Positions 3,216 through 20,466 of a stretch of DNA of 64,000 nucleotides are shown piece after piece (the stretch's first letter is position 1; each line of letters opens with the position of its first letter). The position numbers and the translations under genes are program-made. Location of the stretch: assembly GCF_900230195.1 (NCBI RefSeq), contig NZ_OCNE01000002.1, forward strand, positions 310,001 to 374,000, in the 5' to 3' direction. Under the pieces are notes generated by a model. The model saw only the letters and a list, made by a program, of their open reading frames with translations. It had not been told where the DNA came from and searched no databases. This DNA is from Streptomyces zhaozhouensis (GTDB taxonomy: Bacteria; Actinomycetota; Actinomycetes; Streptomycetales; Streptomycetaceae).

Positions 3216-3243
3216 GTCCCTCACGCTAGAAAACGCGCGACGG

Positions 3244-3262
3244 ACTGTGAATAATTGACAGT
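3244..3262. promoter_or_regulatory. Palindrome in SDR/AraC divergent promoter region
   Basis: ACTGT-N9-ACAGT inverted repeat in the 90-base gap between the divergent SDR and AraC genes. It contains TTGACA (3255-3260), a good -35 match for the AraC direction. A likely operator for the adjacent regulator; inferred only from position and symmetry. Confidence 0.4.
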
Positions 3263-3305
3263 TCACCTTTTCTTCGCGATCGTTCGGGCCATGCGGAGCG
3301 ACCCG

Positions 3306-4205: not shown

Positions 4206-4219
4206 CGGGCGGCGGGCGC

Positions 4220-4261
4220 CTGGCGGCTGACGGCTCACGGCTGGCGGCTGGCGGCCGGCGG
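4220..4261. repeat. Heptanucleotide tandem repeat, six units
   Basis: Six back-to-back 7-base units CTGGCGG, CTGACGG, CTCACGG, CTGGCGG, CTGGCGG, CCGGCGG just after the AraC stop codon. A short variable-number type repeat in an intergenic gap. Confidence 0.85.
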
Positions 4262-4328
4262 TGCCGAGCGATGTCCCGGCCGGGAAAACCCCCGGCACGG
4301 CCGCCCGTCGGATCCCTACGATGGCCGG

Positions 4329-4763
4329 ATGGCAACGCTGAGACAGGTACAGATCACCTTCGACTGCGCGCGGCCCGAGCGCGTCGCGCGCTTCTGGTGC
4401 GAGGTGCTGGGATACGTCGTGCCGCCCCCGCCCGAGGGCTTCGCGTCGTGGGACGCGTACGACCGGTCGCTGCCGGCCGAGCAGCGGGGGGCGGCGTTCG
4501 CCTGCGTCGATCCGACCGGCGCGGGGCCGCGGCTGTTCTTCCAGCGCGTGCCCGAGGAGAAGGTCGCCAAGAACCGGCTCCATCTCGACGTGCGGGTCGG
4601 CACCGGGCTGGTCGGCGAGCAGCGGCTGGCGGCGCTTGAGGCCGAGTGCGCCCGGCTGCTCCCGCTCGGCGCCGAGCGCGTGCGGCTGCTGGAGGCCGAC
4701 GAGGAGAACGAGTCGTGCCTGGTGATGCGGGACATCGAGGACAACGAGTTCTGTCTGGACTGA
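4329..4763 (+). CDS. VOC family protein (glyoxalase-like)
   Basis: A 144-residue member of the vicinal-oxygen-chelate superfamily of the glyoxalase-like type common in Streptomyces. It shows the typical opening QITFDCARPERVARFWCEVLGY and the closing strand VMRDIEDNEFCLD, with one betaalphabetabetabeta module in each half. Metal ligands cannot be assigned with certainty. It stands alone between the AraC gene and the convergent end of the TIR/TPR gene (18 bases away). A catalytic or a binding/resistance role is equally possible. Confidence 0.85.
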   Translation: MATLRQVQITFDCARPERVARFWCEVLGYVVPPPPEGFASWDAYDRSLPAEQRGAAFACVDPTGAGPRLFFQRVPEEKVAKNRLHLDVRVGTGLVGEQRLAALEAECARLLPLGAERVRLLEADEENESCLVMRDIEDNEFCLD

Positions 4764-4781: not shown

Positions 4782-7700
4782 TCAGGTCAGCTGCGGCTCG
4801 AAGTCCCAGAAGGGGCGGACCCGCGCGCGGGCGCTGACCGTGTGGACGTGCTGCGAACCGAGGCTGCTGATCAGCCCGGAGAGCGCCTCCTGCTCCGTGC
4901 GGTCGGCGTCGGCGCGCTGCCGGAGGTTGCGCAGGTCGGTCGCGTGGGCGACCTTGCAGGAGAGCGTCAGCGGGTGGTCCCGCCCGAGCGAGCGGTGGGC
5001 CGCGGCCCGGCGGGCCGTGTCGCGGCTGAGGTCGGCGGCGCTCTCCACGTCGCCCGCGAGGTTCCGGTCGGCGCTGAGGTTGAGCGCGACGCCCAGCCGC
5101 CAGGGGTGGTCGGGGCCCAGCGCCTCCGTGATCCGGATCAGACACTGTTCGTTGAGGGCCAGCGCCTCTTCCCGTTCGCCGGCGGCACGCAGCAGCAGCG
5201 CGTGGTTGGCCAGGGTGCCGATGGTGTACGGGTGGTCGGGGCCCAGCGCGGCGCGGTAGCGGTCCACGACGCGCTCGCCGATGGCGCGCGCCAGGTCGAG
5301 CCGGCCGTGGGCGCGCAGCACGAACGCATAGCAGACGGCGATCCGTTGGGTCGCCGGCGAGACCTCGCCGAGCACCCGCTCGGCGCGCTCCAGCAGGTCG
5401 GCCAGCCGCTCGTTGGCGACCTCGCGCTCCCCCGAGCGCAACAGGCAGAGCGCCAGGTTGAGTTCGGCGCCGAGCGTCTGCGGATGGTCGGGGCCCATCA
5501 CGACCCGCTGCATCTCGACATTGGGCTCCTGGACCGACTGGGCCTCCGCGTACCGGCCGAGGAGGCGCAGGTCGATGGCGTGGTTGGTCTCGGAGGAGAG
5601 GGTCGAGCTGTTCCTGGCGCGCAGCACCTCGCGGCGGACCTGGAGGGTGCGGCGGTCCTCGCGGAGCGCGTCCTTGTACCGGCCGAGGAGGCGGAGGGTG
5701 ACGGCCAGGTTGTTGCGGGAGTTGAGGGTGCGGAAGTCCTCCTCGCCGATCATCTGCACGCGGCCGGCGAGCACCCGCTCGCTGGCCTCCAGGGCCTCCT
5801 CGTAGCGGCCGAGGCCGCGCAGGTCCGCGCCCAGGCCCTCCAGCACGCGCAGCACCTCCAGCGCGTCGCCCGCGTTCTCCCGCTCCAGGCGTTGCAGCAG
5901 GCCGCGGTTGATCCGCTCGGTGCGGGCGTACTCGCCGGTGGCGCGCAGCAGCGTGGCGTGCTGGGAGGCGAGCTCGCGCAGCAGCTCGTGCCCGTCGCCG
6001 TAGACCTCGCGCCAGGCGCGCTCGGTGCGCTCGGCGAGCTGGATGCCGGCCGTGTACTCGCCGGCCAGGTACAGGTAGCGCAGGCAGTTGGCGATGAGCC
6101 GGTGCATCTCGCCGTGCCGGCTGTGCAGCGCGCCCGAGGCGTCCAGGTGCGGCACGATCCTGGCGTACCTGGCCCAGTGCCGGGTGTCGGAGGGGACGGC
6201 GGGGTCCGCGTTGGCCAGCCCTCGGCGCACGGCGCGGGAGAACACCTCGCGGTCCGCCTCCGACATCCCGGAGCGGACGGTCTTGTGGACCATGCGGTGC
6301 AGATGGATGGTGCCGGCGGCCTCTGGGTTCTCGTCCGTGTTGGGCGGGTCCCACTGGATGACCGAGTACTGGACGAGCTTGTTGGTCGCCGTGTTCCACC
6401 GGAGGGGGTCGGACATCATCCCGGACAGCTGCTCCGGCAGATGCTCGGTGGGGATGTCGCGCAGCAGTTGCACGGGGATGGCGCCGGGGGCGAAGAACGC
6501 GCAGAGCCGCAGCAGCTCGACGGCCTCGGGGACGGCCTCCCGCAGCTTGTTGAGCATTATCGAGAAGGTCGTCGGATAGGTGACGTCGAAGTCGACGGCG
6601 ACCCGCAGCCCGGCCTCGATGTCCTCGTCGTCGCGCAGCAGGCCGACGTACTCCTGGACGGTCATGGTGGAGTCGCTGAGCCAGCCGGCCGTCTGGTCGA
6701 GGGCCAGCGGCAGGTCGCCGAGCGCCTCGGCGAGCAGGTTGGCGTCCTGGCCGCCGATGCGGGGCGCCCGGCGGCGGACGAACGCCACGGACTCCTCGCG
6801 GTCGTAGACGGGGACGGACAGCAGATGGGTGTTGTTGTACGCGCCCCACTCGCGGTTCTGCGAGGTGATCAGCACGTGGCCGGGGCCGGCGGGCACCAGG
6901 TCGTCGATGGTGTCGGGGCGGTCGGCGCCGTCCAGGACGACCAGCCAGCGGGAGTGCGGGTCACCCCTGCGCAGCGCGTCGCCGACGGCGCGCAGCCGCT
7001 CGCCGTACTCGTGGCCCGTGGTGAGGTCGAGCGCGGGCGCCAGCTCGGCGAGCCGCTGGCGGAGCGTGCCGCGCTGGTCGGCGGGGACCCACCACACCAG
7101 GTCGTAGGCGGAGGAGAAGCGCCACACGTACTCGGCGGCGACCTGCGTCTTGCCGACGCCGGAGAGGCCGAGCAGGGTGACGACCCCGGCGCCGGGCTCG
7201 GCGCCCTGCACCTGGTCGTGGATGGCCTGGAGCAGCCGCTCCCGGCCGGTGAACCGGGTGTTCCTGCGGGGGACGCCGCCCCAGACCCGGGGCAGCTCCA
7301 TCGGGAAGCGCGGGGAGCGCGCGCCGCTGAGGGTGTCGAGCGCCGGGTCGCGCGCCTCGATCACGCCGACCAGCTGGGCGAGGCGTCGCTCGGCCTCCCT
7401 GGCGCCCAGGCCCCACAGCTCGGTGGTGCCGCCGAACGCGGCCGAGGCGGTGGGCATCGGGGCGGTGGAGACGGAGACGGCGCGGAAACGGGCCGAGTTG
7501 GGGGCGACGACGGCGCGCAGCGCCTCGTTCCACTCCTGGTCGGTGCGCGGACCGAGCTTGAAGTACCAGTCGCTGAGCACCACCAGGATGCGTCCCTGGA
7601 CCAACAGCAGGTCGTTGAGCGCCTCGTGGACGGGCGTCCCCGACGGCAGGTCGAAGCGCTGGAACGCGACCTGCCAGCCGTAGCGCTCCAGCCGGTCGGC

Positions 7701-7796
7701 GATCCACACCGCCCAGGCGCGGTTGTACCCGGCGTGGCTGATGGTGATGCGGCGGTCCTCCGCCTGCGGGGGCGTGACACGAGCCGAACCTTGCAC
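4782..7796 (-). CDS. fxsT: FxSxx-COOH-system-type TIR / NB-ARC / TPR protein
   Basis: A 1004-residue STAND protein. Residues about 14-145 form a TIR-like domain (ITISHAGYNRAW, ILVVLSDWYF, then EWNEAL, where a TIR catalytic glutamate could lie). Residues about 180-470 form an NB-ARC NTPase with Walker A GLSGVGKT near 210, Walker B WLVVLDGAD near 285, and LPLALDQTAGWL. The rest is tetratricopeptide repeats (for example RYEEALEASERVLAGR). This matches the protein I know as the TPR component of FxSxx-COOH systems. The GTG start at 7796 was chosen for its GGAGG; an upstream GTG at 7832 has none. It is the last gene of the peptide-maturation cluster, 113 bases after the HExxH gene. TIR NADase activity is possible but unproven. 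Confidence 0.85.
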   Translation of the reverse strand: MQGSARVTPPQAEDRRITISHAGYNRAWAVWIADRLERYGWQVAFQRFDLPSGTPVHEALNDLLLVQGRILVVLSDWYFKLGPRTDQEWNEALRAVVAPNSARFRAVSVSTAPMPTASAAFGGTTELWGLGAREAERRLAQLVGVIEARDPALDTLSGARSPRFPMELPRVWGGVPRRNTRFTGRERLLQAIHDQVQGAEPGAGVVTLLGLSGVGKTQVAAEYVWRFSSAYDLVWWVPADQRGTLRQRLAELAPALDLTTGHEYGERLRAVGDALRRGDPHSRWLVVLDGADRPDTIDDLVPAGPGHVLITSQNREWGAYNNTHLLSVPVYDREESVAFVRRRAPRIGGQDANLLAEALGDLPLALDQTAGWLSDSTMTVQEYVGLLRDDEDIEAGLRVAVDFDVTYPTTFSIMLNKLREAVPEAVELLRLCAFFAPGAIPVQLLRDIPTEHLPEQLSGMMSDPLRWNTATNKLVQYSVIQWDPPNTDENPEAAGTIHLHRMVHKTVRSGMSEADREVFSRAVRRGLANADPAVPSDTRHWARYARIVPHLDASGALHSRHGEMHRLIANCLRYLYLAGEYTAGIQLAERTERAWREVYGDGHELLRELASQHATLLRATGEYARTERINRGLLQRLERENAGDALEVLRVLEGLGADLRGLGRYEEALEASERVLAGRVQMIGEEDFRTLNSRNNLAVTLRLLGRYKDALREDRRTLQVRREVLRARNSSTLSSETNHAIDLRLLGRYAEAQSVQEPNVEMQRVVMGPDHPQTLGAELNLALCLLRSGEREVANERLADLLERAERVLGEVSPATQRIAVCYAFVLRAHGRLDLARAIGERVVDRYRAALGPDHPYTIGTLANHALLLRAAGEREEALALNEQCLIRITEALGPDHPWRLGVALNLSADRNLAGDVESAADLSRDTARRAAAHRSLGRDHPLTLSCKVAHATDLRNLRQRADADRTEQEALSGLISSLGSQHVHTVSARARVRPFWDFEPQLT

Positions 7797-7909
7797 GGAA
7801 CCTCCCTCGGCGGTCGCCCGACCGACCCGCACGCTGCTGACGACTGGTGGTGTCCGGGGTCGCCCGACGCCTCGTCAGCTCCCCCGTGGAAACATACACC
7901 GCCGGACTG

Positions 7910-9268
7910 TCAGGTAACCGTGCCACGAGCGTGCTGCCGGGACCAGACGGCCCACGCGGTCTCCAGGTACGCCCTGGCGCGCACCAGATGGCCCCGGGGC
8001 GGCTCCGGCGAGGCCAGGCGCCGGTGCCGTTCGGCCATCGCCGCCAGGAACGTCCGTCCGTCGTCGGTGAGTCGGCGGGCGGCGCGCAGCGTGGGAAGCA
8101 CGGCGCCCACCTGGGTGTGGCAGCGGCAGTAGGCGGCCCACGCCCGGTCGCGCGCCCCCGGTTCCTCAAGACCGAGGGCGAGGGACTGCCAGAAGCCGGC
8201 GAGCGCCAGGTGCGCGTAGGCGCCGTGCAGCAGCCCGTCGAACGGGCGGGGGTCGGGGCGCCACGGCGCCCAGTGGCGGGGGGTGTCGTCCTGGTGGTGC
8301 AGCGGGTTGAGCGCGCCGACGGCCGCGAGCTTGGCGTGCTGCAACTCGTGGGTGAGCCCCGCGGCCAGCAGCGCGGCGCTGGGCGGGGTGCTGGCCAGCA
8401 CGGCGCCGAACGCGCCCGCGCTGGTGGAGCTGGTGTGCCCGCCGTGGCCGCCGGTGGGGCGCAGCAGCGGAACGATGCAGCTGAGCAGGGCGAGTTCGGC
8501 GGCGCGGGCCGCCCCGCCGAGGCGCAGCAGCGGCAGCGCCTCGTGCCACAGCCGGGACCAGTGGTCGCGTTCTGCGGGGCGCAGCGCGTGGCGCGGCGGG
8601 CCGTCCTCGGGGAGGGCGGCGCGGGCGGGCGCGGGACGCCCGGGGTCGAGGTCGTCCAGCAGCACGGGGCGGGGTCCGCCGTCCAGGGTGTGCAGGGCGC
8701 GCCAGCGGGGGTCGGTGGAGCGCCAGTGGCCGGCGGGGTCGGGGCGGAGGACGACGGGGGCCTCGCCGGGGAGTCGGACGGTCAACCGGTCGTGGCGGGC
8801 GGCCAGTTCGGCGTGGCCTGAGGTGGGCGTGTCGAGCGCGCCGAGGGTGGGCAGCGCGAGCCGGCCGCCGTCGACGGAGACGCGGACGCGGAAGTCGAGC
8901 CCGGCGCGGAGCGCGGCGGCGGCCGCCAGGCCCCCGAGGTGGGCGAGGTCGCGGGTGGCGTCCCGGCCGGCGCCGGTGGCCAGGCGGTGGGCGCAGCGTT
9001 CCGCCCAGCTGCCGGTCAGCGGGTAGAAGAGCACGCGGCGGGCGGCCTCGGGCGCGGCCCGCTCGGCGCCTTCGAGGAGCGCGGCGTGCTCCCCGGCGAG
9101 CGTGGCGGCGCGCGCCGGCGCGGCGGGCAGCGCGTCGAGCAGCACGCGCAACAGCAGCATCCGGTGGGTGTGTTGGCCGGCGGCGAGGGCGGCGAGGGTG
9201 GTGGGGGCGCCCTCGGTGCGGCCGAGCTGCGCCAACTGGTCGCCGTCCAGGGGCGCGGGCCCGGTCAC
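7910..9268 (-). CDS. HExxH motif-containing putative peptide-modification enzyme
   Basis: A 452-residue protein of the family annotated as HEXXH-containing peptide modification protein, more recently as aKG-HExxH-type peptide beta-hydroxylase. HELQH sits at about residues 307-311, followed by NPLHHQDD and a WAPWRPDPRPFDGLLHGAYAH region that could supply further metal ligands. The GTG start overlaps the TGA stop of the radical SAM gene (GTGA), so the two are translationally coupled. In related clusters this protein modifies the same precursor peptide as the radical SAM enzyme; beta-hydroxylation here is inferred from the family name. Confidence 0.82.
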   Translation of the reverse strand: MTGPAPLDGDQLAQLGRTEGAPTTLAALAAGQHTHRMLLLRVLLDALPAAPARAATLAGEHAALLEGAERAAPEAARRVLFYPLTGSWAERCAHRLATGAGRDATRDLAHLGGLAAAAALRAGLDFRVRVSVDGGRLALPTLGALDTPTSGHAELAARHDRLTVRLPGEAPVVLRPDPAGHWRSTDPRWRALHTLDGGPRPVLLDDLDPGRPAPARAALPEDGPPRHALRPAERDHWSRLWHEALPLLRLGGAARAAELALLSCIVPLLRPTGGHGGHTSSTSAGAFGAVLASTPPSAALLAAGLTHELQHAKLAAVGALNPLHHQDDTPRHWAPWRPDPRPFDGLLHGAYAHLALAGFWQSLALGLEEPGARDRAWAAYCRCHTQVGAVLPTLRAARRLTDDGRTFLAAMAERHRRLASPEPPRGHLVRARAYLETAWAVWSRQHARGTVT

Positions 9269-10443
9269 GGGGACACCGCCCGGTGCAGCGCGTCGGCCAC
9301 GTGCCGGATCAGGCGGGCCAGGTCGGCGCAGTAGACCGAGGGGTTGGCGAAGCCGTGGCCCGCGCGGTAGCGGTGGACGTGGTTGCCGCCGCCGCAGACG
9401 TCGAGGAGCGGGCAGGCGCGGCAGCTCGGGGCGAGCGCGTCGGGTCCCGACTGGCGGGCCGCGACGCCCGGGTGGCGCAGGGCGGCGTCGAACGGGTCGG
9501 TGGCGACGTGGAGTCCGGTGCCGGCGGCGCCCTGGTAGGCGGTCTTGAGCGCGTCGATCTGCTCGATGGAGCCGTCGGTCTCGACGACCACGGCGCTGAA
9601 CGGGTGCAGCCCGAACAGGCCGCCGGAGGTGGGCTGGCCGAGGAGGGCGGCAAGGCACTCGTCGAAGAGGGCGATCGGCACCCGGCGGTCGGACGCCCAC
9701 CAGCGGTCGAAGACGGCGATCAGCCAGTCGGCGTAGGGCGTGGGGCGCGCGGTGTCGGGACGGGCGCCTTCGAGTCCGGGGGGCGGTGCGGTCCAGTTGC
9801 CGTGGGGCAGGCGGAGGTCCAGCGCGGGCGGGTCGAGCGCCAGCAGCGACTGGTAGACCTCGATCGGGTCGCTTTCGGGATCGATCACGCTGAGCACGGC
9901 GGCGTAGCCGGGCCGGTGCTCCGGCGCGGCCAGCAGCCGGGCGGCGCGGCGCAGGGCGGGCCAGGCGGGGCGGCCGGCGTGGTCGACGCGGAGCCGGTTG
10001 TGGTGCGCGCGTCCGCCGTCCAGGCTGAGCCCGACGGCGATCCGGTGGGCGGCCAGCGCCCGCAGCCGCTCGGCGGTCAGCAGGGTGCCGTTGGTCTGCA
10101 CGGTGGCGAGCACCCGGCAGCCGGCGGGGACCAGGGCGCGGACGAGGTCGACGAACCGGCCCAGCTCGGCGGGGTCGGTGAGCAGTGGCTCGCCGCCGTG
10201 CAGCACCAGCGAGACGGCGGGCAGCCGGTGGGTCGCCGCGTGTTCCGCGACGCGCCGGGCGGTCCGGTCCAGGGTCTCGGGGGAGGCGCCGACGGGCTGC
10301 CGGCGCCAGCCGTCGTCGGCGGCGAAGTACATGTAGCAGTAGCGGCAGGCCAGGTTGCAGCGGCTGTTGACCTTGACGACGAACTGGCGGAAGGGCGCGG
10401 GCTCCCGCTCCGCCGGGCCGGGGGCCCGGGTCGTGGCCTCCAT
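9265..10443 (-). CDS. fxsB: FxsB-type radical SAM/SPASM peptide maturase
   Basis: A 392-residue radical SAM enzyme. The cluster-binding motif CNLACRYC gives C29, C33 and C36; GGEPLL follows as the SAM-binding GGE motif. The C-terminal SPASM-like region has SCRACPLLDVCGGG and a later YCADL cysteine for auxiliary clusters. FxsB-group maturases are known to form three-residue cyclophane crosslinks (triceptides) in ribosomal peptides. The ATG at 10443 has purine-rich GGAGGGAAGGGA upstream. The gene follows the precursor gene after a 156-base gap holding an attenuator-like hairpin, and overlaps the HExxH gene by 4 bases. Confidence 0.88.
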   Translation of the reverse strand: MEATTRAPGPAEREPAPFRQFVVKVNSRCNLACRYCYMYFAADDGWRRQPVGASPETLDRTARRVAEHAATHRLPAVSLVLHGGEPLLTDPAELGRFVDLVRALVPAGCRVLATVQTNGTLLTAERLRALAAHRIAVGLSLDGGRAHHNRLRVDHAGRPAWPALRRAARLLAAPEHRPGYAAVLSVIDPESDPIEVYQSLLALDPPALDLRLPHGNWTAPPPGLEGARPDTARPTPYADWLIAVFDRWWASDRRVPIALFDECLAALLGQPTSGGLFGLHPFSAVVVETDGSIEQIDALKTAYQGAAGTGLHVATDPFDAALRHPGVAARQSGPDALAPSCRACPLLDVCGGGNHVHRYRAGHGFANPSVYCADLARLIRHVADALHRAVSP

Positions 10444-10536
10444 GGGCGTCCCTTCCCTCCGGGCCTCGTGCCCTTCCGGGCCTCGTCCGTACCGGCCTCC
10501 CGTCCTGGAGGAAGACCCTTCCGAGGGAGGGCAGAA

Positions 10537-10566
10537 CAAAAACCCCACCGGTCGTTTCCGGTCGGG
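10537..10566 (-). terminator. Attenuator-like terminator between precursor and maturase
   Basis: On the minus strand a stem of CCGG/CCGG extended by CCC/GGG across a small internal loop is followed by TTTTTG. It lies in the gap between the precursor stop and the radical SAM start. Such partial terminators commonly make the peptide more abundant than its enzymes. A T-run this clear is rare in this window. Confidence 0.6.
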
Positions 10567-10599
10567 CAACGGTCGCAAGTGGACCGAAAGCGAGCGAAC

Positions 10600-10800
10600 T
10601 TACCAGTCCTGCCGTTTCGGCGCCTCGTCGAAGTCCCAGAGGGTCTCGCGAGGATGGGCCAGCCGCTCGCGCAGCTCCGCGAGGAGCGACTCCAGCACCG
10701 GATGATCCATCCGCCGCACCTCGGCCAGGCTCAACGCCAACAGATCGGGCAACTCGGGCAGTCCCCCCGAGGCCACCGCCTCCCGCGCACCCGTCGCCAT
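10600..10800 (-). CDS. fxsA: FxsA-like RiPP precursor peptide, variant C-terminus
   Basis: A 66-residue peptide with an ATG preceded by GGGGAGG at good spacing. The leader-like helix reads LPELPDLLALSLAEVRR, then DHPVLESLLAELRERL, matching the leader region of FxSxx-COOH precursors. The expected C-terminal Phe-x-Ser-x-x is absent. Instead the tail is ETLWDFDEAPKRQDW: Trp55 and Phe57 lie next to acidic residues, with a terminal Trp66. It sits directly upstream of the radical SAM and HExxH genes on the same strand. The role as substrate is inferred from position, size and leader similarity. Confidence 0.75.
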   Translation of the reverse strand: MATGAREAVASGGLPELPDLLALSLAEVRRMDHPVLESLLAELRERLAHPRETLWDFDEAPKRQDW

Positions 10801-10969
10801 GCCGCCTCCCCACGCCTCTGCCACGCCCGGACCCCCCAACGGGGATTCCCCGGCGCCCGGCGGAGGAAACGGGCCGGGCGCGGGGCGCGCGGCACGGCGG
10901 GTGGTCGCGGCGCGCGCCGGGCGCACGAGCGGGGCGCGGAGCGGGCCGGAACGGAGACGGCGGGCTGGC

Positions 10970-13900
10970 TCAGCGTTCCCGCAGCAGGGCCTCCAGCCGG
11001 GCGACGGTCTCCGCGCCCGACTTCTCCTCGTCCGGCAGCCGGCGCCACTGCTGGAGCGCCGCGCGGTAGGCGTCGCCGGCGGCCAGCGGCCGGCGGGCCG
11101 TCTCGAAGACGGCGCCGCGCTGGTGGAGCGCGGTGGCCGCCAGCCGCACCGGCTCCGCCGGGTCGACCGCGTCCGCCTCCGCCGCGCGGGCCGCGGAGGC
11201 GGCCGCGCGATACGCCTCGGCCGCCAGGTCGAGCCGCTCGAAGCCCCGGGTGTGCCGGAACACCCGGCGGTGGGTGTCCCCCAGCTCCAGCAGCGCGCGC
11301 GCCCTGGTCAGCGGCTCGCCGGCCCCCCGGGCCGCCCGCTGGAACAGGTGCTCCGCCTCCCGCAGGTCGACCATGTCCACCGCGTCCCGGTACCGGGTCG
11401 TCAACGCCCGCCCCAGCAGCAGCAGTCGCGCCGGCAGCCGGGGATCGTCGGCCGCCGTCTCCATCCGGCAGTCCCGCAGCACCCGCACCGCGCGCGAGAC
11501 GAACGGCGCGCCGTCCTCCCGGTCCGCGCGGCGCAGCAGCGCGGCGCCCCACTCCTCGATCAGCGCGCTGTACTCCGGGCGGTCGCGCGAGACCAGCCGG
11601 CCCGCCTTCTCGAACCTGGCCGCCGCCGCCTCCAACTCCGCGACCTGTCCGTCCCGTTCGAAGGCGCGGATCGCCAGCCGCCCCGCCCGGGTCAGACAGG
11701 CGGAACGCGTCGCCGGGTCGTCGGCCAGCCGCTCCGCCGCCTGGATCACCCCGTCCGCCTCGCGCCACTCCTGGTCGGTGCGCAGCAGCGCGTCCACCAG
11801 GTCCAGCAGCGCGCGCACCCGCACACGCGCCGGCGCGCGCTCGCTCTCCAACGCCCGACAGCCCTGGCGCAGCGAGTCGGCGGCCTGACCGGCGTGCACC
11901 CCGACCCGCTCCCCGCCGCGCGCCGCGTCGGCGAGCAGCAGCAGCGCCCGGCCGTGCGCGAGCCACAGCCCGCTGGGCTGCGGCTCGTCCGCCGGCCAGG
12001 CGTCGGCGACCGCCTCCACGATGCCCACGCTCTCCTGCAACAGCGCGCTGTCCCCTCCGAGCCGCCACTGCGCGGTCAGCACCTCGACCCGGTCCAGCGT
12101 GACGCCGAGCGCCGCCTCCCGGTCGAGCCCCGGCGTGGCCTGCACCGCGGCGAACTCCCGGTCCGCCAGCCGCCACAGCTCCAGCGCGCCCCTGGTGTCC
12201 CCGGCGGCCCGCCGCCGCCCGGCCGCCGCGTGCAGCACCCGGGCCAGCACCGTGCGCCCCCGGTGCGAGCCGGCGTGTGCGGCGGCCGTGCGCGCCGCCC
12301 GTTCCGCCTCCGCCAGCAGCTCCCCGTCGCGCTGGACCCGCCACAGCCGCAGCAGGCCCTCGGCCAGGTCGGCCCACAGCTCCGGATCCGGCCGCTCCGT
12401 CACCGCGTGCCGCAACAACCCGACGGCCGCCAGCAGATGGCGGACCTGGCCGTCCTCCTCGTAGGCGGCGGTCAGCTCCCTGGCGCGGCCGACCACCCGG
12501 GACGGCGTCTCCCGCTCCCGTCCCTCCTCGCGCGGCGGGAGCGGGGCGACCGGCAGGAAGCGGCGCAGCACCTTCGCCGCCACCTCGGCGAAGGGGCGGG
12601 GCAGCGCCGCCCCCTCCTCGTCCGCCCCGGCCGCCTCGGCGAGGGCGCGCGCCTCCCCGCTCTCCGCGCCGGACAACTGGGCCAGCGCCAGGGCCGGGAA
12701 GTTCGGCCCGGCGTCGCCGAAGCGCCTGGCGACATAGCCGGAGCAGTGCTTGAGCACCAGCAGGGCCTCGTCGTGGCCCAGTTCGGTCAGCAGCGCCTCG
12801 TGCACCCCGTCGACGAAGGTGAACCACAGCCCGTCCGAGGGCGAGCCGGGCGGCGGCTCGTCCAGCCGGCGCACCAGCCCGCCGAGCAGCACCTCGGAGA
12901 GCTCCGAGGGGCCGGAGTCGGGCAGCATGGTGCGCTGGATCAGCTGCATCACCGGCAGGAAGAGCGGCGCCGCCGCCAGATAGACGGCGAGCCTGACCGC
13001 GCCGGGCGAGGCCGAGGCGCGGAAGCGCGCCAGCGCCTCGGCCGCCGACCGGCCCCCGCCGGGGGCGCGCGGTCGGCCGGCCGCCGGCTGGTCGGCGCGG
13101 GCCCAGCCGACGGCGGCCGGCACCCGGCCGGGGCCCGTGCCGGCCAGCAGCCCGGCCCAGGCGCCGAGCGCCGCGGCCGTCGGCGGCAGCAGCGGCACCG
13201 GCACGGCGCGCGCGGGGACCGGGCGGGCGGCGGACAGCCCCTCGGCGAGGAAGCGCAGCCGGACCGAGCCGGCCGGCCCCGGCTCGCGCAGCAGCGTGCC
13301 GCTGCTGGCGGGCAGCCGGGTGCGCGGCCACAGCCGCTGGGGCAGCGGCTGCACCACCGCGACGGGCGCGTGCCGCGCCAGCCCGTACAGCAGCCGGTGC
13401 GCCGTGCCCTCCCGCCACAGCGGTCCGGCGCAGTCGCTGACCACCACGGTCAGCCGCCGGCCCGTCGGGTCGCCCAGCTGCCTGGCGGGGCGCAGCGCGG
13501 CGCCCTCCGGGTCGAACCTGCGGCTGACCGCCGGGCTGCCGTCGGGCGAACGGTGCAGATAGTGCACCTGGATGTCCCGGAACGCGCCCAACCTGCCGAA
13601 GACCTCGGCCAGTTCGCCCAGCATCCGCTGCCAGACGCGCATCGCGGGCGCGGCGTCCATCAGCAACTGGAGCTCGGTGTGCCCGCGCGGCTCGGCGCGG
13701 AAGACCGGCGTCAGCAGCCCCCCGGCGCGCGCGGTGCGCTGCGCCGTCTCCGGCTCGTCGAGCACCAGCCCCCGGTGCGGGCGGCGCGGCGGCCCGGTCG
13801 GCGGGGTGTAGCGGCGCAGCGGGCGCAGCGCGCGCTCCATGGCGAGCAGTCCCGGCAGCGCCCTGGCCTCGGGCACGCCGACGGGCAGCGCCTCGCCGCG

Positions 13901-14263
13901 CGGCCGGGCCGCGTCCCGGCGGGCGGGCTCCCCCGGGTCCGCGTAGAGCGAGACCGTCTCGTCGTCGGCGCGCGGCGGCCGGCCGGGGCCGGCGGGCCGC
14001 TCCTCCTCCCCGGCCTCCGACGGGCGCTCGTTCTCCGTCGTGCGCTCCTCCGCCTCCGTTCGCGCCCGCTCGCGCGCCGGCTCGTGCCCGTGGCGCGCAC
14101 TCCACCCGTCCCCCGGGTCCCCCGGCGCCTCCTCGGCGCCGCCCCGGGTGTACTGGGCCAGCCAGAGCGCGTCGGACAGGTCCTTCCACGTCGGGTCGAA
14201 CCCGGCGCCGCGCAGGGCGGCGACCAGGGACGCCAGTCGGTCGGGGCGGGCCGCGTGGGACAT
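10970..14263 (-). CDS. SAV_2336 N-terminal-domain-related protein with vWA-like and TPR-like regions
   Basis: A 1097-residue protein. The N-terminus (SLVAALRGAGFDPTWKDLSDALWLAQY) is the SAV_2336-type domain, followed by a low-complexity acidic/Arg-rich linker of about 80 residues. Residues about 185-340 have the pattern of a von Willebrand A-like fold: LLMDAAPAM in the position of a DxSxS motif, and a strand LTVVVSDCAGPLW. The MIDAS site would be degenerate. The C-terminal ~550 residues are helical and TPR-like. The ATG follows the MoxR stop by 6 bases, with AGGTAGG as ribosome site, so they are cotranscribed. It probably partners the MoxR ATPase. Confidence 0.78.
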   Translation of the reverse strand: MSHAARPDRLASLVAALRGAGFDPTWKDLSDALWLAQYTRGGAEEAPGDPGDGWSARHGHEPARERARTEAEERTTENERPSEAGEEERPAGPGRPPRADDETVSLYADPGEPARRDAARPRGEALPVGVPEARALPGLLAMERALRPLRRYTPPTGPPRRPHRGLVLDEPETAQRTARAGGLLTPVFRAEPRGHTELQLLMDAAPAMRVWQRMLGELAEVFGRLGAFRDIQVHYLHRSPDGSPAVSRRFDPEGAALRPARQLGDPTGRRLTVVVSDCAGPLWREGTAHRLLYGLARHAPVAVVQPLPQRLWPRTRLPASSGTLLREPGPAGSVRLRFLAEGLSAARPVPARAVPVPLLPPTAAALGAWAGLLAGTGPGRVPAAVGWARADQPAAGRPRAPGGGRSAAEALARFRASASPGAVRLAVYLAAAPLFLPVMQLIQRTMLPDSGPSELSEVLLGGLVRRLDEPPPGSPSDGLWFTFVDGVHEALLTELGHDEALLVLKHCSGYVARRFGDAGPNFPALALAQLSGAESGEARALAEAAGADEEGAALPRPFAEVAAKVLRRFLPVAPLPPREEGRERETPSRVVGRARELTAAYEEDGQVRHLLAAVGLLRHAVTERPDPELWADLAEGLLRLWRVQRDGELLAEAERAARTAAAHAGSHRGRTVLARVLHAAAGRRRAAGDTRGALELWRLADREFAAVQATPGLDREAALGVTLDRVEVLTAQWRLGGDSALLQESVGIVEAVADAWPADEPQPSGLWLAHGRALLLLADAARGGERVGVHAGQAADSLRQGCRALESERAPARVRVRALLDLVDALLRTDQEWREADGVIQAAERLADDPATRSACLTRAGRLAIRAFERDGQVAELEAAAARFEKAGRLVSRDRPEYSALIEEWGAALLRRADREDGAPFVSRAVRVLRDCRMETAADDPRLPARLLLLGRALTTRYRDAVDMVDLREAEHLFQRAARGAGEPLTRARALLELGDTHRRVFRHTRGFERLDLAAEAYRAAASAARAAEADAVDPAEPVRLAATALHQRGAVFETARRPLAAGDAYRAALQQWRRLPDEEKSGAETVARLEALLRER

Positions 14264-14269
14264 GGGTGC

Positions 14270-15343
14270 CTACCTGGGTTGGTCGAGGCGCTGGATCAGC
14301 ATGTCGGCCAGTCGGTCGCGGGTGGGCAGCTCGGCGTGGTGGGTGAGGTAGATGGCGTTCAGCAACTGGTCGGTGGCGAGCTGTTCGGTACGGGACCGCT
14401 CGAGGAAGCGGCTGATCAGATCCTCCCCGACCCTGGTCAGGTCATCCCCCAGATGCGCCCTGACCACCGTGGCCAGCCGCTCGTGGTCGGGCCGGCCCAA
14501 CCGCAGCGGGATGCAGCGGCGCAGCAGCGGCGCCGGGAAGTCCCGCTCGCCGTTGCTGGTCAGCACGACGAACGGGAAGGCGTGGCAGCGGACCCTGCCC
14601 TCCCGGACGGTGACCTTGGCGCCGTCGTCGGTCAGCACCTCGACCTCCGGCTCGCGCTCCGCGATCCGCTGGAGCTCGGGAAGGGTGAACTCCCCCTCCT
14701 CCAACACGTTCAACAGGTCGTTGGGCAGGTCGATGTCGCTCTTGTCCAGCTCGTCGATGAGCAGCACCCGCGGCTTCGCCGTGGGCAGCAGCGCCGTGCC
14801 GAGCGGGCCCAGCCGCAGATAGCTGCCGATGCCGCCGGGCACGGCGGCCGAGGAGAGCCCGGCGGCCCGTCCGCTCGCCGCGATCTGGGCGTCCTGGAGG
14901 CGGGCGATCGCGTCGTAGTGGTACAGCCCGTCCTCCAGCCGGCTGCGGCTGACGACCGGCCAGTGCAGCACCCGGCCCAGCCCCAGCTCGAACGCGACCG
15001 AGTGGGCCAGGGTGCTCTTGCCCGTGCCCGGGCTTCCGGTGACCAGCAGGGGGCGGCGCAGATAGAGCGCCGCGTTTATGATCTCCAGCTCCTCGGCGCT
15101 CGGCCGGTGCATCTCCGCCAGATGGCGGAACGCGCCCAGCCGGCGGGCCGAGACGCTGTCGGTGTCCGGTCCCGGCGCGACCAACGGGTGGCCGCCACCG
15201 TCGAAGTCACGCCACGGGGGCGGCTTCGGCAGCGCGCGGATGCCCTCGTGTCGCTCGCCCGTGCCCCGGTAGATCAGCCACTCGCCGCCCGCCGACTCGC
15301 GTCCGGCGGGACCTTCCTGACCGTTGGTTTCAGAGACTGCCAC
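14270..15343 (-). CDS. MoxR family AAA+ ATPase
   Basis: A 357-residue AAA+ ATPase. Walker A is GSPGTGKST, Walker B LLIDELDKSD followed by NDLLNVLEEGEF, sensor-1 VVLTSNGERDF, and the arginine-finger segment PLLRRCIPLRL. A GTG start with AGGAGG six bases upstream was chosen. MoxR ATPases act as chaperone-like remodelers that usually work with a vWA protein. Here the next gene encodes a vWA-like SAV_2336 protein and the gene upstream a protease-VMAP protein, which matches the vWA-MoxR-VMAP ternary arrangement described from comparative genomics. Confidence 0.9.
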   Translation of the reverse strand: MAVSETNGQEGPAGRESAGGEWLIYRGTGERHEGIRALPKPPPWRDFDGGGHPLVAPGPDTDSVSARRLGAFRHLAEMHRPSAEELEIINAALYLRRPLLVTGSPGTGKSTLAHSVAFELGLGRVLHWPVVSRSRLEDGLYHYDAIARLQDAQIAASGRAAGLSSAAVPGGIGSYLRLGPLGTALLPTAKPRVLLIDELDKSDIDLPNDLLNVLEEGEFTLPELQRIAEREPEVEVLTDDGAKVTVREGRVRCHAFPFVVLTSNGERDFPAPLLRRCIPLRLGRPDHERLATVVRAHLGDDLTRVGEDLISRFLERSRTEQLATDQLLNAIYLTHHAELPTRDRLADMLIQRLDQPR

Positions 15344-15472
15344 CGCGTCCTCCTCGTCGGTACTGGGCCGTGTCGTTGATCGCCCGGCCTCCGACGCTCC
15401 CGACCGTAGCCGGGGCGGGGGGCCGCGCCCAGGGGATGCGACCGGTTCGCGTCAACCTCGCCCGCCGGGCCG

Positions 15473-17569
15473 TCACGGCGCCTCCAGGAAATCCTCTTCG
15501 GGCATCTCGCCCTCCGGTTCGCCGTAGAGCAGGGCGAGGTCGCTCATCCAGGAGGGTGACGGCACCCCGTCCGGAGCGGTCCCGGCCGCCTCGCGCATCC
15601 GCCAGAGGCTCTCCAGCAGCCGGTCACACGCCCCGCCGCCGACCAACCTCGTCAGCGAGCCGTGGAGGTGTTCGCAGGAGGGATCGCGCGCGGCCAGCTC
15701 GCGCTGCCACAGGATCACGTTGAACCCGCTGGCCATGACCCGGTGCAGCGCGGCCGGCTCGCCGCCGACCGCCGGCGCCCGGCAGAGCACGGGAACCGTC
15801 GTCAACTCCCTGCCCAGCAGCGCCGCCCGCTCGGGCAGCGCGCGCGGCAGCCCGCCGTGGCAGTCGAGCACGTCCGCCACCAGCCGCCCCTCGTGCGCCG
15901 CGGCCCAGCGCGCCCGCCGGAGCGTCGCGAGCTCCTCCCCGTCCTCGGCGCCCGGCATCGGGTCGGTGCAGCGCACCACCACCGGCCTGACCTCCCCGAG
16001 GGTCGGCCCGTCCGGCGTCAACCGCCACTGGTCGAACGGGACCTGGAGCAGCGAGTACGGCACCGCCACCTGGAGCGGCACCGGCGAGCCCGGCTCGTCG
16101 CCCCGCCTGAACGCCTCGACCAGCGCCGCGAGCAGCCGCTCCGGGGGCCGCCTGAGGTCGCCCACCTCGGTCGCCCCGTCGATCGGGTCGTTCCGACCGC
16201 TCGGCCTGGCGCAGACCCGCCAGTCGTAGCCGTTCGCCTCCCAGAAACGGGAGTCCAGCTCCAGCACGGCGAGCGAGTCCAGCCGCACCACCGGGGCGGC
16301 GGCGTCCAGCCAGTCCACGTCCAACGGCTGGAGCGTGGCCGACCAGGGGTCCGCGCGGGCCAGCCTGGCCTCCTCCTCCAGCCGCAGCCGCGTGCGGACC
16401 CGGCGCGGCAGCGAGGGCGCGTCCTCCGCCACCGCGTGCACCCACTCCAGCAGCCGCTTCTCCGTGCCGGGCTTCGCCGGGTAGGGGCGCTCGTCGGTGG
16501 CCGCGTGGAGCGCGTAGCGCAGCACCGCCTCCAGCCCGGCGAACTCGCCCCGCAGCTCGTGGAGGAGGCCGAACCCGTCCCGCCAGCCACGCGGCGCGGG
16601 CAGCGCCCCCTCGTACGGCCGGCCGCGCAGCTCACCGACCAGCGCGTCAAGCCGGGGCGTCGAGACCGGCGGCGGCAGCGCCGCCAACAGGCCGAGCAGC
16701 TTGACCCGCTGTCCCGGGGTGAGGACACCGGGGGCACCGGGCAGCTGGTTCTGCGCGTCGGTCCAGGTGGGCTGGCCCGAGTCCGCGCCCAGATGGCGCT
16801 CGGCGTGGTGGGCGTCGTGGCCGTGGACGACGGCCTGGTAGAGGTCGTCCCCGACCCCGAGCACGGGTCCGGCCGGCGCCGGCAGCCGTCGCAGCTGGAT
16901 GACCGAGGTGGCCAGCCCGCCGTCCTGCCCGGCCCTGCGGCCCTTGACCACGCCGATCACCTCGCCGCGCGCGAGGTCGACCAGCGGGCCGCCGGAGATC
17001 CCGCGCAGCACCTCGTCCTCGTTGCCCAGGCGCAGCAGTCCCTCGGAGCCGAGCTCGCCCTTGACGGTGCACCGGCCGCTGACGTCCACCACCTGGCCCG
17101 CGACCTCCGCGGCCCCGAAGAAGGCGACCTCCTCACGGGTGAAGAGCCGGGCGGTGCGCTCGCTCAGCCAGACGCAGCCCGGCCCCTCGGGCGGCGGGGG
17201 CGGCGGCGCGTGAAGCCGGACCAGGGCCAGGTCGGGGGCCGGCCACATCCCGCCCTCCCACGGCGCCGCCTCGGGCCGGGCCCACTCCACACGGCCGGGC
17301 ACCGGGCGGTCCACACCTCTGAAGGTCAGCCCCACCTCGCGCCTCCCTCCCTGGGCGCCTCCTCCCGAGAGGGCCACATGGGCGCAGGTGAGCACCCACT
17401 CGGGAGCGACGAAGAACCCGCTGCCCCACGGGGGAGGCAGCGGCTCGCCCTCGGCATACCCGGTCGGCGGTGGATGGATGCGTACGGTGGCGGCGGCGAC
17501 GAGCGGCGCGAGGAGTTCGAAGGCGTTCTCGTCGTGGTGCCGTGCGCCCCCCTCGTCCCCCCATGTCAT
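15473..17569 (-). CDS. Trypsin-like serine protease with VMAP-like C-terminal region
   Basis: A 698-residue protein. Residues 1-220 are a chymotrypsin-fold protease with an intact triad: His64 in LTCAHVA, Asp113 in APDLALVRL, Ser192 in GISGGPLVD. There is no signal peptide, so it should act in the cytoplasm. The middle (residues about 260-370) is helical, resembling VMAP middle modules. The C-terminal half (FDQWRL, CHGGLPRALPERAALLGRELTTVPVLCRAPA, FNVILWQREL) fits the VMAP-C type. The ATG overlaps the Trypco1 stop (ATGA). The protease call is firm; the VMAP assignment is from pattern recognition and needs a profile search. Confidence 0.8.
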   Translation of the reverse strand: MTWGDEGGARHHDENAFELLAPLVAAATVRIHPPPTGYAEGEPLPPPWGSGFFVAPEWVLTCAHVALSGGGAQGGRREVGLTFRGVDRPVPGRVEWARPEAAPWEGGMWPAPDLALVRLHAPPPPPPEGPGCVWLSERTARLFTREEVAFFGAAEVAGQVVDVSGRCTVKGELGSEGLLRLGNEDEVLRGISGGPLVDLARGEVIGVVKGRRAGQDGGLATSVIQLRRLPAPAGPVLGVGDDLYQAVVHGHDAHHAERHLGADSGQPTWTDAQNQLPGAPGVLTPGQRVKLLGLLAALPPPVSTPRLDALVGELRGRPYEGALPAPRGWRDGFGLLHELRGEFAGLEAVLRYALHAATDERPYPAKPGTEKRLLEWVHAVAEDAPSLPRRVRTRLRLEEEARLARADPWSATLQPLDVDWLDAAAPVVRLDSLAVLELDSRFWEANGYDWRVCARPSGRNDPIDGATEVGDLRRPPERLLAALVEAFRRGDEPGSPVPLQVAVPYSLLQVPFDQWRLTPDGPTLGEVRPVVVRCTDPMPGAEDGEELATLRRARWAAAHEGRLVADVLDCHGGLPRALPERAALLGRELTTVPVLCRAPAVGGEPAALHRVMASGFNVILWQRELAARDPSCEHLHGSLTRLVGGGACDRLLESLWRMREAAGTAPDGVPSPSWMSDLALLYGEPEGEMPEEDFLEAP

Positions 17570-17979
17570 GTGGCGTCCCGGCCACGCGGCGGCGGGGGCG
17601 CGCCCTGCCAGGTGAGGGTGACCGTGAGGGCGCCCTTGGCCTCCCCCTCGGCCAACAGTCCGACGATCCGACCGGCCTTGGCCGTCAACTCGATGCCGAA
17701 GCTGACGCTGACCTCGTCGGGCCTGGCGTCCCGCAGCCCGTCGGCGACGGAGGCGGCGACGCCGCCGATCAGGTCGCGGAGGCTGTCCATCTGTGCGGCG
17801 GCCTGTGCCGCCGCGCGCTGGGCGAAGCCGCTGTCGACGAAGCCGGTGTCGACATAGCCGCCGCGCGGCTGCTGCTCGGGCACGGCCGCGGGCTCCGCGC
17901 CGGCGCCCGCGCCGGGGGAGATCCGGGCCCACACCGGTGTCCCGTCCGGGAGTGTGACCCTGGTGACCTCGCCGCTCAT
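17566..17979 (-). CDS. Trypco1 / CU044_2847 family protein
   Basis: A 137-residue protein of the trypsin-co-occurring domain 1 type. The core has VTLPDGTPVWARI at the N-terminus and VSVSFGIELTAKAGRIVGLLAEGEA followed by VTLTW at the C-terminus, with an Ala/Gln-rich middle helix. It ends with ATGA shared with the start of the trypsin-VMAP gene, so expression is coupled. The family is defined by its association with cytoplasmic trypsin-like proteases in conflict systems; it may serve as substrate, inhibitor or adaptor. It appears to be the first gene of the minus-strand run down to 4782. Confidence 0.83.
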   Translation of the reverse strand: MSGEVTRVTLPDGTPVWARISPGAGAGAEPAAVPEQQPRGGYVDTGFVDSGFAQRAAAQAAAQMDSLRDLIGGVAASVADGLRDARPDEVSVSFGIELTAKAGRIVGLLAEGEAKGALTVTLTWQGAPPPPRGRDAT

Positions 17980-18594: not shown

Positions 18595-18645
18595 TTGACG
18601 TTCCCCACACGCGATATATCGTCTTCGGAGGAATGCGATATATCG
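18595..18645 (+). promoter_or_regulatory. Promoter with twin CGATATATCG operators upstream of DUF4097-padR
   Basis: TTGACG at 18595-18600 is a -35 element; a -10-like TATCGT lies at 18617-18622, 16 bases on. The perfect palindrome CGATATATCG occurs at 18612-18621 (over the -10) and again at 18636-18645, 24 bases apart. This AT-rich pair stands out from its surroundings and is the likely binding site of the PadR regulator encoded downstream, which would give autoregulation. Confidence 0.65.
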
Positions 18646-18683
18646 GCCCGTTCGCGTGGGCCGGACCGAGGCGGGGAGGCGCG

Positions 18684-19544
18684 ATGGCGCGGAACGACGA
18701 GTGGTCCATCGCCGAGCCGAGGACGCTCTCCTTCAGCGACGACCCGGTCGCGGAGGTGGAGCTGCGCGTCATGGGCGGCACGGTCAACGTGGTGGGCACG
18801 GACGATCCGGTCGCCCGGGTCGAGGTCGGCGCGGTCTCCGGCCCGCCGCTGCTGGTCAGGCTGGACGGCGAGCGGCTGGTGGTGGGGTATCACGACCTTC
18901 CGTGGCAGGGTTTCCTGCCCTGGCTGGCGCACCGGCGGGGGCGCCGCTCCGTGGTGGTCTCCCTCTCGCTGCCCAGGGGTTGCCGGCTGACGGCGGGTTC
19001 GGTCAGTGCGGACGTGACGCTCGGCGGGCTGGCCGGGCCGGTCTCGGTGAGCACCATCAGCGGGGAGACGACCCTGGTCGGGCTCTCCGGCCGGGTCAGC
19101 GTGGACACGGTCTCGGGCGCCGTCGAGTCGCTCGGGCTGAGCGGCCCGCTGCGCGCCCAGTCGGTCTCGGGCTCGCTGGCCGTCGTCGACGGCACCTGCC
19201 CCTCGGTGCGCGCGGACACGGTCAGTGGCGAGTTGCTGGTGGAGCACGCCAGCGCCACCACCCCGCCCGACATCAGGTTGAGCACCATGTCGGGGCGGAT
19301 AGCGCTGCGGCTCCCCGAGCAGCCCGGCGCCACGGTCACCGGCAGCACCCTGAGCGGCGCGGTCACCTGCGCCCTGCCGGGACTGCGAGGCGGGTCCCGC
19401 GGCACCAGATCGCTCTCCGGCCGGATCGGCTCGGGGGCGGGCTCGGTCAGCCTGGCCTCCCTCTCCGGAGGGATCACGCTGCTGCGCCACCCCGGGTTCG
19501 CTCCCGAGCCCTCCGCCCCCTCCTCCCTGCGTAAGGACGTCTGA
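18684..19544 (+). CDS. DUF4097 family beta-strand repeat protein
   Basis: A 286-residue protein made of repeated short beta-strand units, seen as recurring VSVSTISGETTLVGLSGRVS, VDTVSGAVESLGLSG, and later STMSGRIALRL and STLSGAVTCAL. These form the parallel beta-helix-like DUF4097 fold. The ATG at 18684 has GGGGAGG upstream; an in-frame ATG at 18633 lies inside the operator and has a badly spaced ribosome site. It has no signal peptide. It is one base from the padR start, so it forms an operon with it; DUF4097-PadR pairs are frequent in Streptomyces, but the role is unknown. Confidence 0.86.
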   Translation: MARNDEWSIAEPRTLSFSDDPVAEVELRVMGGTVNVVGTDDPVARVEVGAVSGPPLLVRLDGERLVVGYHDLPWQGFLPWLAHRRGRRSVVVSLSLPRGCRLTAGSVSADVTLGGLAGPVSVSTISGETTLVGLSGRVSVDTVSGAVESLGLSGPLRAQSVSGSLAVVDGTCPSVRADTVSGELLVEHASATTPPDIRLSTMSGRIALRLPEQPGATVTGSTLSGAVTCALPGLRGGSRGTRSLSGRIGSGAGSVSLASLSGGITLLRHPGFAPEPSAPSSLRKDV

Positions 19545-19545
19545 G

Positions 19546-20466
19546 ATGCCCCCCGTCTTCGGCCACGGCCGGCTCCGGCTCTATCTCCTCAAGCTGCTCG
19601 CGGAGTCGCCCCGCCACGGCTACGAGGTCATCCGGCTGCTGGAGGAACGCTTCCAGGGGCTCTACGCGCCCTCGGCCGGCACGGTCTACCCCCGGCTGGC
19701 CAAGCTGGCCTCGGAGGGGCTGGTCAGCCACACCGAGGAGGGCGGACGGAAGGTCTACTCGCTGACCCCCGAGGGCGAGCGCGAGCTGGCCGGCCGCACC
19801 GAGGAGCTGACGGCACTGGAGCGTGAGCTGCGGGACTCGCTGAGCGCGCTGGCCGCGGGCCTCAGGGAGGAGGTCAGCGACTCGGTGCGCGAGTTGCGGT
19901 CCGAGGTCGGTCGGGCGGGCGCCGAGGAGTTCGCCGCCGGGGGACGGCGGAGCCGCCCGGGTCGCGCGGGCGCCGGCGCGACGACCGGTGCCGAGGAGGC
20001 CCGCGCGACGCCCGAGGGCCGGGAGTCCGAGGCGCCGAGCGGGGCGGAGTGGCCGGGGCAGGTCGGCCAGGAGCACTTCGAGCGGGCGGCCCGCCGCATC
20101 CAGGAGCGGGTGCGCTCCCGCGCCACGGCGGGCGACTGGCCGGGCGCGGTGCGGGCCGGGCTGGACGGGCTGAGCGCCGAGTTCTCCGGCTGGAAGAGCC
20201 CCGGCGAGCCGCGCGCCACGTGGGCCCCCGCCGGAGGCTGGTCCGCCGGGACGCCCGGAGCCGAGGATGCCTCGCCCGAGGGGGGCGAGGAGGCCGTCGC
20301 CGATCCCGCGCGGGAGTTGGAGCGGCTGCTGGACCGCTTCCGGGACGATGTGCGGGACGCTGCCAGGGACCACGGCGTCAGCCAGGAGCAGTTGCGCGAG
20401 GCGCGGCACCAGCTCTCGATAGCCTCCGCCCACCTGGCCGCCCTGCTGCGCTCCCCGCACGGCTAG
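19546..20466 (+). CDS. PadR family transcriptional regulator with long C-terminal extension
   Basis: A 306-residue regulator. The N-terminal ~90 residues are a PadR winged helix (LRLYLLKLLAESPRHGYEVIRLLEERF, then SAGTVYPRLAKLASEGLV, then GGRKVYSLTPEGERELA). The rest is an unusually long tail: a helical region, an Ala/Gly/Arg/Glu-rich linker and a final helical part (ERLLDRFRDDVRDAARDHG). PadR proteins are usually 110-200 residues. The start lies one base after the DUF4097 stop. It probably represses its own operon through the twin palindromes at 18612-18645. Confidence 0.9.
   Translation: MPPVFGHGRLRLYLLKLLAESPRHGYEVIRLLEERFQGLYAPSAGTVYPRLAKLASEGLVSHTEEGGRKVYSLTPEGERELAGRTEELTALERELRDSLSALAAGLREEVSDSVRELRSEVGRAGAEEFAAGGRRSRPGRAGAGATTGAEEARATPEGRESEAPSGAEWPGQVGQEHFERAARRIQERVRSRATAGDWPGAVRAGLDGLSAEFSGWKSPGEPRATWAPAGGWSAGTPGAEDASPEGGEEAVADPARELERLLDRFRDDVRDAARDHGVSQEQLREARHQLSIASAHLAALLRSPHG

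Follow-up and report, generated by a model that had tools for sequence, protein, structure and literature searches.

A candidate FxSxx-type VMAP ternary conflict system with a clade-specific peptide at a fixed chromosomal site in Streptomyces zhaozhouensis

Layout and domain identities of the eight-gene unit

The genes considered here lie in a window of 64,000 nt from Streptomyces zhaozhouensis (contig NZ_OCNE01000002.1, positions 310,001-374,000 of the forward strand; "the window" denotes this whole stretch, and its coordinates are used throughout). Eight open reading frames (ORFs) run on the minus strand from 17979 to 4782 and combine the components of a VMAP ternary system, a pathway for a ribosomally synthesized and post-translationally modified peptide (RiPP) and a TIR-STAND protein. 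The first product, Trypco1 (trypsin-co-occurring domain 1; 17566..17979; 137 aa), scores 73 bits against PF19493 (cutoff 24.6) and matches NF041216; its ORF shares an ATGA overlap with that of a 698-aa protein (15473..17569) in which a trypsin-like peptidase (PF13365) is fused to VMAP-C (PF20028, 126 bits). A MoxR-type AAA+ ATPase (14270..15343; 357 aa; AAA_5/AAA profiles) follows after 129 bp and, 6 bp further on, a SAV_2336-type vWA protein with a helical C-terminal region (10970..14263; 1097 aa; SAV_2336 N-terminal domain profile NF041121, 471 bits, cutoff 200). The largest gap of the unit, 169 bp, precedes the 66-aa FxsA-like precursor peptide (10600..10800), for which a homologous ORF is found at the same place in relatives and whose TIGR04268 score of 26.6 bits lies below the cutoff of 28. 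It is followed by FxsB, a radical SAM/SPASM maturase of the cyclophane-forming family (9265..10578; TIGR04269, 415 bits, cutoff 370), whose longest ORF begins with TTG at 10578, the ATG at 10443 being the likely start favoured by homologues. FxsB shares a GTGA overlap with a homologue of the alpha-ketoglutarate (aKG)-HExxH-type peptide beta-hydroxylases (7910..9268; TIGR04267, 148.8 bits, cutoff 40), and after about 77 bp the run ends with a TIR-NB-ARC(STAND)-TPR protein (4782..7832; 1016 aa; NF040586, 862 bits, cutoff 300; PF13676 TIR_2; TPR_12), named "FxSxx-COOH system TPR protein" by NCBIfam.

All ORFs of the run of eight same-strand genes with overlaps or short gaps, proposed earlier in a sequence-only reading, were thus recovered, and its domain calls were borne out by profile searches, with the qualification that the FxsA-like peptide falls under its family cutoff, MoxR is diverged and the vWA domain is recognised solely in a predicted fold. 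The gene pattern is far from chance, with identical genes in identical order recurring across the genus. Both FxsB and VMAP-C are single-copy in the S. zhaozhouensis genome, where the VMAP-C match of this unit is the only one. A weak terminator-like site lies between the FxsA and FxsB genes (10562-10547), found by promoter and terminator scans that are ill-suited to high-GC Streptomyces, and PADLOC returned no unit-specific match, only general similarities to radical SAM, AAA+ and TIR proteins.

VMAP-C, MoxR and vWA proteins are encoded together, with Trypco1 beside the trypsin version, which is the composition of a VMAP ternary system. The trypsin triad (His64/Asp113/Ser192) is invariant among 41 homologues; its S1 region is variable, and cleavage of the peptide leader after Lys/Arg, which we considered, found no support for this reason. 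In the MoxR protein, whose bpMoxR score (PF20030) is under the cutoff, Walker A (GSPGTGKS), Walker B (DE), sensor-1 (SN) and R275/R276 are invariant in 42 homologues. The SAV_2336-type protein has no Pfam match. The best fold match of a model covering residues 1-520 (mean pLDDT 65.6, a moderate quality) was the metal ion-dependent adhesion site (MIDAS) domain of Rea1/midasin (6qta), with a Z of 8.8 that is close to the noise level quoted by the fold-comparison tool; vWA domains, those of midasin and, further down, NorD included, dominate the top of the list, and the predicted fold indicates that the protein carries a vWA domain. Its metal-site aspartates D203 and D277 are the same in each of the 43 homologues that could be read at these positions. 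The MIDAS of the window protein reads D-A-A-P-A, lacking the serines of the complete DxSxS motif, and among units that contain FxsB this loss is confined to the clade of the window (DAAPA, DAASA, DATPA, DTTSA, DAASP), always with both aspartates kept. The passages of Kaur et al. (2020; PMC7159879) on these proteins require the aspartates only and mention related vWA domains without even those; hence, the incomplete MIDAS is a departure and not a defining feature of a VMAP ternary system.

At the other end of the unit, a PDB sequence search with the TIR alignment gave no match, and a comparison of the modelled fold of the domain did, with BtTir (7uxr) as the best match (Z 10.9) and AbTir (8g83) at Z 9.5. 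The predicted catalytic glutamate, E100 of an E-W-N motif, is kept in 33 of 35 homologues from FxsB-containing units and in five of six from units without FxsB, and presumably sits at the offset of the BtTir and AbTir catalytic glutamates. Its PF13676 match, its modelled fold and the position of this residue make the domain a predicted NAD-consuming TIR, and the likeness to bacterial TIRs together with the E100 offset favours an intracellular circuit, leading from the precursor, a sensor and a protease step to the TIR-STAND protein and loss of NAD+.

The precursor peptide and its predicted modifying enzymes

The precursor of the window combines a conserved leader (LPDLLALSL..HPVL) with the core WDFDEAPKRQDW-COOH, which does not end in FxSxx. 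Its clade shares this feature: in all 12 precursors the core consists of F-x-[Q/E] and a tail of 3-11 residues, as in S. sedi (WDFEEAPKSKPQRPDW) and S. hoynatensis (FNQFSQFSSSSLPS, with three F-x-x repeats). Outside the clade all 32 precursors carry F-x-[S/N/A] (one with Tyr for Phe), and 31 of them have a tail of two to three residues. The clade-specific core predicts a new cross-link, from Phe to Gln or Glu. Up to three consecutive F-x-[QSN] repeats (FNQFSQFSS, FNQFSSFNQ) were also seen in precursors of two loci, L005 and L008 (at about 9640-9810, upstream of FxsB), suggesting that one peptide may carry several cyclophanes.

FxsB matches the cyclophane synthase ChlB (9gm3; E 2e-70) and, like its TIGR04269 family, has conserved CX3CX2C and SPASM cysteines; it is the predicted maturase that would form the cyclophane on the precursor. 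The HExxH protein matches the corresponding part of a radical SAM protein (PDB 22nu; E 7e-32) and ChlH (8s5f; E 1e-7), and its motif is invariant in 44 homologues. In the passages of Kaur et al. (2020; PMC7159879) that deal with it, the protein is read as a metallopeptidase cutting the precursor. NCBIfam now labels the domain an aKG peptide beta-hydroxylase (TIGR04267), and the evidence summarised in PMC12636437 is that proteins of the HExxH type hydroxylate a pre-formed cyclophane peptide, one HEXXH enzyme cleaving the backbone oxidatively. Judged by its matches, the window protein is homologous to aKG-dependent peptide hydroxylases and not to a peptidase, which leaves the VMAP trypsin as the sole ordinary protease of the unit. 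Profile searches of the eight genes and the flanks examined found no exporter or leader peptidase family. In Streptomyces specialis (L035, 10606-13842) the FxsB match is split in two and the HExxH gene is apparently interrupted by about 1.4 kb, at residues 320-354.

Inheritance of the unit and its chromosomal site

The sequence-only reading had divided the genes into two halves (17979-10970 and 10800-4782) and had named as the outcome counting against one unit that they be rarely neighbours in other genomes and transcribed independently. As to neighbourhood, in Streptomycetaceae they adjoin in 44 of 44 loci: the vWA gene is next to the precursor in all 24 loci from genome_contigs with a relative of FxsB and in all 20 further loci from the GTDB genus, picked solely for FxsB near a TIR-STAND gene. 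Some of the loci are cut by contig ends, and within the limits set by contig ends the gene order is identical or simply rearranged throughout. In a rearranged locus, L007 (Streptomyces sp. 7-21), FxsB and HExxH lie on the strand opposite to FxsA, vWA, MoxR and TIR-STAND. Moreover, units with and without FxsB are divided by a single split, with support 100, in the TIR-STAND, MoxR, vWA and HExxH trees; the same two labels require five changes on the tree of the neighbouring kgd gene, at least four of which are forced by strongly supported branches. One split in four trees drawn from both halves, against five changes on the kgd tree, implies that its genes are exchanged or lost together, as one block. 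The distances of vWA and TIR-STAND proteins also run in parallel (r=0.98; partial correlation 0.86 with the kgd signal removed). Together with the adjacency, these results support the view that the RiPP genes, the TIR-STAND gene and the protease-MoxR-vWA genes belong to a single unit, as that reading had supposed.

Outside Streptomycetaceae, the unit is almost complete at one Gandjariella locus, where no precursor ORF was found, and in nine loci (L025-L032, L034) FxsB occurs without MoxR and VMAP, mostly with HExxH and often with a TIR-STAND or TPR protein nearby. Within Streptomyces, one locus (L067, genome G069) is a natural partial deletion: the stretch between DUF4097 and vWA (6676-6999 of that locus) lacks the genes for Trypco1, VMAP-trypsin and MoxR, and vWA, precursor, FxsB, HExxH and TIR-STAND are retained.

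The unit occupies a fixed place between conserved flanks. On one side lies kgd, encoding the 2-oxoglutarate dehydrogenase E1 part (28..2103, plus strand; PF00676, PF02779, PF16870), on the other a DUF4097 gene (18633..19544, plus strand; PF13349) followed by a PadR-like regulator (19546..20466, plus strand; PF03551). The TIR-STAND gene is convergent with kgd in all 36 distinct loci with both genes, in 25 of which only about 77-207 bp separate them, and the opposite end of the unit is divergent from DUF4097 (then PadR) in 32 of 33 loci. In the window, a short-chain dehydrogenase gene (minus strand) and a glyoxalase-like gene (plus strand) stand between kgd and the unit (2211-4763). The site holds a unit with FxsB, holds a unit without FxsB, or is empty (loci L109-L126), kgd and DUF4097 being only 464-687 bp apart in some relatives with an empty site (L119, L124, L125). 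These three states require 16 changes on a kgd tree of 47 genomes, which gives no frequencies since the genomes were partly selected by state; in one genome scored as empty (G018), HExxH and TIR-STAND genes of the FxsB-less kind lie in another arrangement about 10 kb from kgd. Repeated loss and exchange at one site fit this pattern best, and we prefer them to duplication followed by differential loss. In the clade of the window all 11 genomes on the kgd tree carry the FxsB version, and the unit follows kgd. No close copies of the unit were found on plasmids or viral contigs, the viral scan having used a single sequence by which close relatives only are detectable.

Units without FxsB occupy the same chromosomal place in six of the 20 examined genomes that lack FxsB (L107, L112, L115, L116, L122, L126) and comprise Trypco1, VMAP, MoxR, vWA, a precursor, HExxH and TIR-STAND. 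Genome-wide, these six have no FxsB above the family cutoff, so HExxH presumably acts there without that cyclophane maturase; an HExxH relative without FxsB occurs in about 23 of 150 sampled genomes. Precursors of FxsB-less units (including L127-L148) share the leader LPDLtdvDLRTLR..DD.. and have a variable tail with no F-x-S end; a Trp at a near-constant distance is invariant in the 21 of them that were read. That this Trp is the target of HExxH was considered and is left as a lead, one subgroup with FxsB (L077, L079, L081, L082, L085) having NAF instead.

Interpretation and relation to known systems

We read the window as holding an FxSxx-type VMAP ternary conflict system of the class described by Kaur et al. 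(2020), single-copy, chromosomal and with a clade-specific peptide variant, and give this reading, including the following mechanism, a probability of about 0.5. The gene identities, intact catalytic motifs, block inheritance and vWA/TIR-STAND coupling are results of the computation; the biochemistry that we infer from them has five steps. FxsB would form a three-residue cyclophane in the core, most likely at F57-D58-E59 judging by family and motif, and the aKG-HExxH enzyme could then hydroxylate a residue close by, Asp56 or Asp58 being candidates by analogy with ChlH. As the unit has genes for neither a dedicated leader peptidase nor an exporter, the modified precursor would stay in the cytoplasm, with the VMAP trypsin as the only protease of the unit at hand. 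A vWA-MoxR-VMAP assembly may sense the trigger, and through ATP-driven remodelling the modified C-terminal peptide might be either set free or destroyed by the trypsin. The changed state of the peptide would be read by the TPR/NB-ARC part of the TIR-STAND protein, whose TIR would then degrade NAD+ and stop the cell. Several observations weigh against this reading. The unconserved S1 region predicts no cut site for the trypsin, and the partial deletion in L067 suggests that the protease may not be essential. Moreover, the pattern in the clade of the window resembles that of a core gene more than that of a mobile defence island, and no experimental study of the system was found in the literature.

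The same anatomy would serve if the modified peptide normally restrained the TIR-STAND protein and, upon interference with the complex by phage or stress, were destroyed by the MoxR-gated trypsin, thereby freeing the TIR. The strongly conserved leader and drifting tail would suit a peptide that is retained instead of exported; however, FxsB-less precursors keep an invariant Trp and have no F-x-S core, so that the cyclophane as such is no general requirement, and we consider such a guard unlikely. That the peptide is an intracellular signal in the development or physiology of mycelial Streptomyces, and not part of immunity, agrees with the fixed site, the single copy and vertical inheritance in the clade of the window, with the lack of close copies on plasmids and, within the reach of the viral scan, on viral contigs, and with the divergent DUF4097/PadR flank. 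This seems rather unlikely given the effector architecture of the TIR-STAND protein and the changes of presence, absence and version often found among close relatives outside that clade (the 16 on the kgd tree). A peptide that is exported as an antibacterial or signalling RiPP, with self-immunity provided by neighbouring genes, would account for the RiPP enzymes and precursor; yet it would have to leave the cell without the exporter and leader peptidase families sought among the eight genes and examined flanks, which makes it highly improbable. If a VMAP ternary system were independent of an fxs RiPP/TIR system and the two merely shared a neighbourhood, this would explain the nine FxsB loci outside Streptomycetaceae without MoxR and VMAP as well as L067 without the VMAP and MoxR genes, but not the joint split in trees from both halves, the partial correlation or the unbroken adjacency, and we regard this as improbable.

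Returning to the conflict-system reading, we speculate that the locus serves immunity or kin discrimination, with whole-unit "alleles" at one site, the clade-specific cross-linked peptide as a password and the vWA-MoxR-protease sensor reporting to a TIR-STAND executioner. The change from F-x-S to F-x-Q/E with a longer tail might then have accompanied the loss of the metal-site serines, since it would be the vWA site that reads the modified peptide. We hold this to be doubtful; both changes may go back to one ancestor, so that their co-occurrence is one event and not a statistical association.

VMAP ternary systems are predicted to act in conflicts and are widespread among multicellular bacteria; the block inherited here joins a modified peptide with a gated protease and a TIR-STAND protein. 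Since empty sites, two versions and one partial deletion occur at one chromosomal place, close relatives provide ready-made comparisons in harmless soil bacteria. Should the peptide prove to be what connects sensor and TIR inside the cell, a RiPP would here take the part of an immune second messenger.

The relevant passages of Kaur et al. (2020; PMC7159879) already describe such a unit, which couples FxSxx-type peptide processing with a VMAP ternary conflict system; a system for peptide processing is present in about 20% of the VMAP ternary systems of actinobacteria, and the peptide is proposed to be a toxin or a signal that amplifies the core system. Hence, the earlier statement that the combined unit has no assigned function stands only in so far as no test of it was found, its layout having been described. 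In the FxSxx type of these authors a radical SAM-SPASM gene is added, the vWA protein has TPRs only and a TIR-AP-ATPase-TPR gene lies downstream. The window follows that outline point for point in gene families and order, with its Trypco1-trypsin-VMAP, MoxR, vWA with helical repeats only, precursor, radical SAM-SPASM, HExxH and separate TIR-AP-ATPase-TPR genes, but differs in the precursor of its clade, which has no FxSxx end, in the lost MIDAS serines and in the HExxH protein, here read as an aKG hydroxylase. The FxsB-less units fall outside the types without radical SAM in that account (RxD or acidic, in which AP-ATPase and vWA are fused), because their TIR-STAND gene is separate. FxsB and HExxH are homologues of ChlB and ChlH of the fused radical SAM-aKG-HExxH cyclophane systems (Morishita et al., 2024, as presented in PMC12636437), although in the window each has a gene of its own and both belong to a conflict unit. 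An FxsB-family maturase and an FxSxx_TPR protein also occur in stand-alone fxs systems (FxsA/FxsB or fused FxsBH, FxsC, FxsT), and the systems in the nine loci outside Streptomycetaceae are, unlike the window, without the MoxR-vWA-VMAP module. The TIR domain shares its fold and conserved Glu position with BtTir and AbTir but is fused to NB-ARC and TPR, its NADase role being predicted from sequence and model. The passages of Kaur et al. (2020) drawn on here make no mention of a fixed site with haplotype swapping, and the fixed chromosomal site, the swapping between two versions and the altered peptide of the clade look new.

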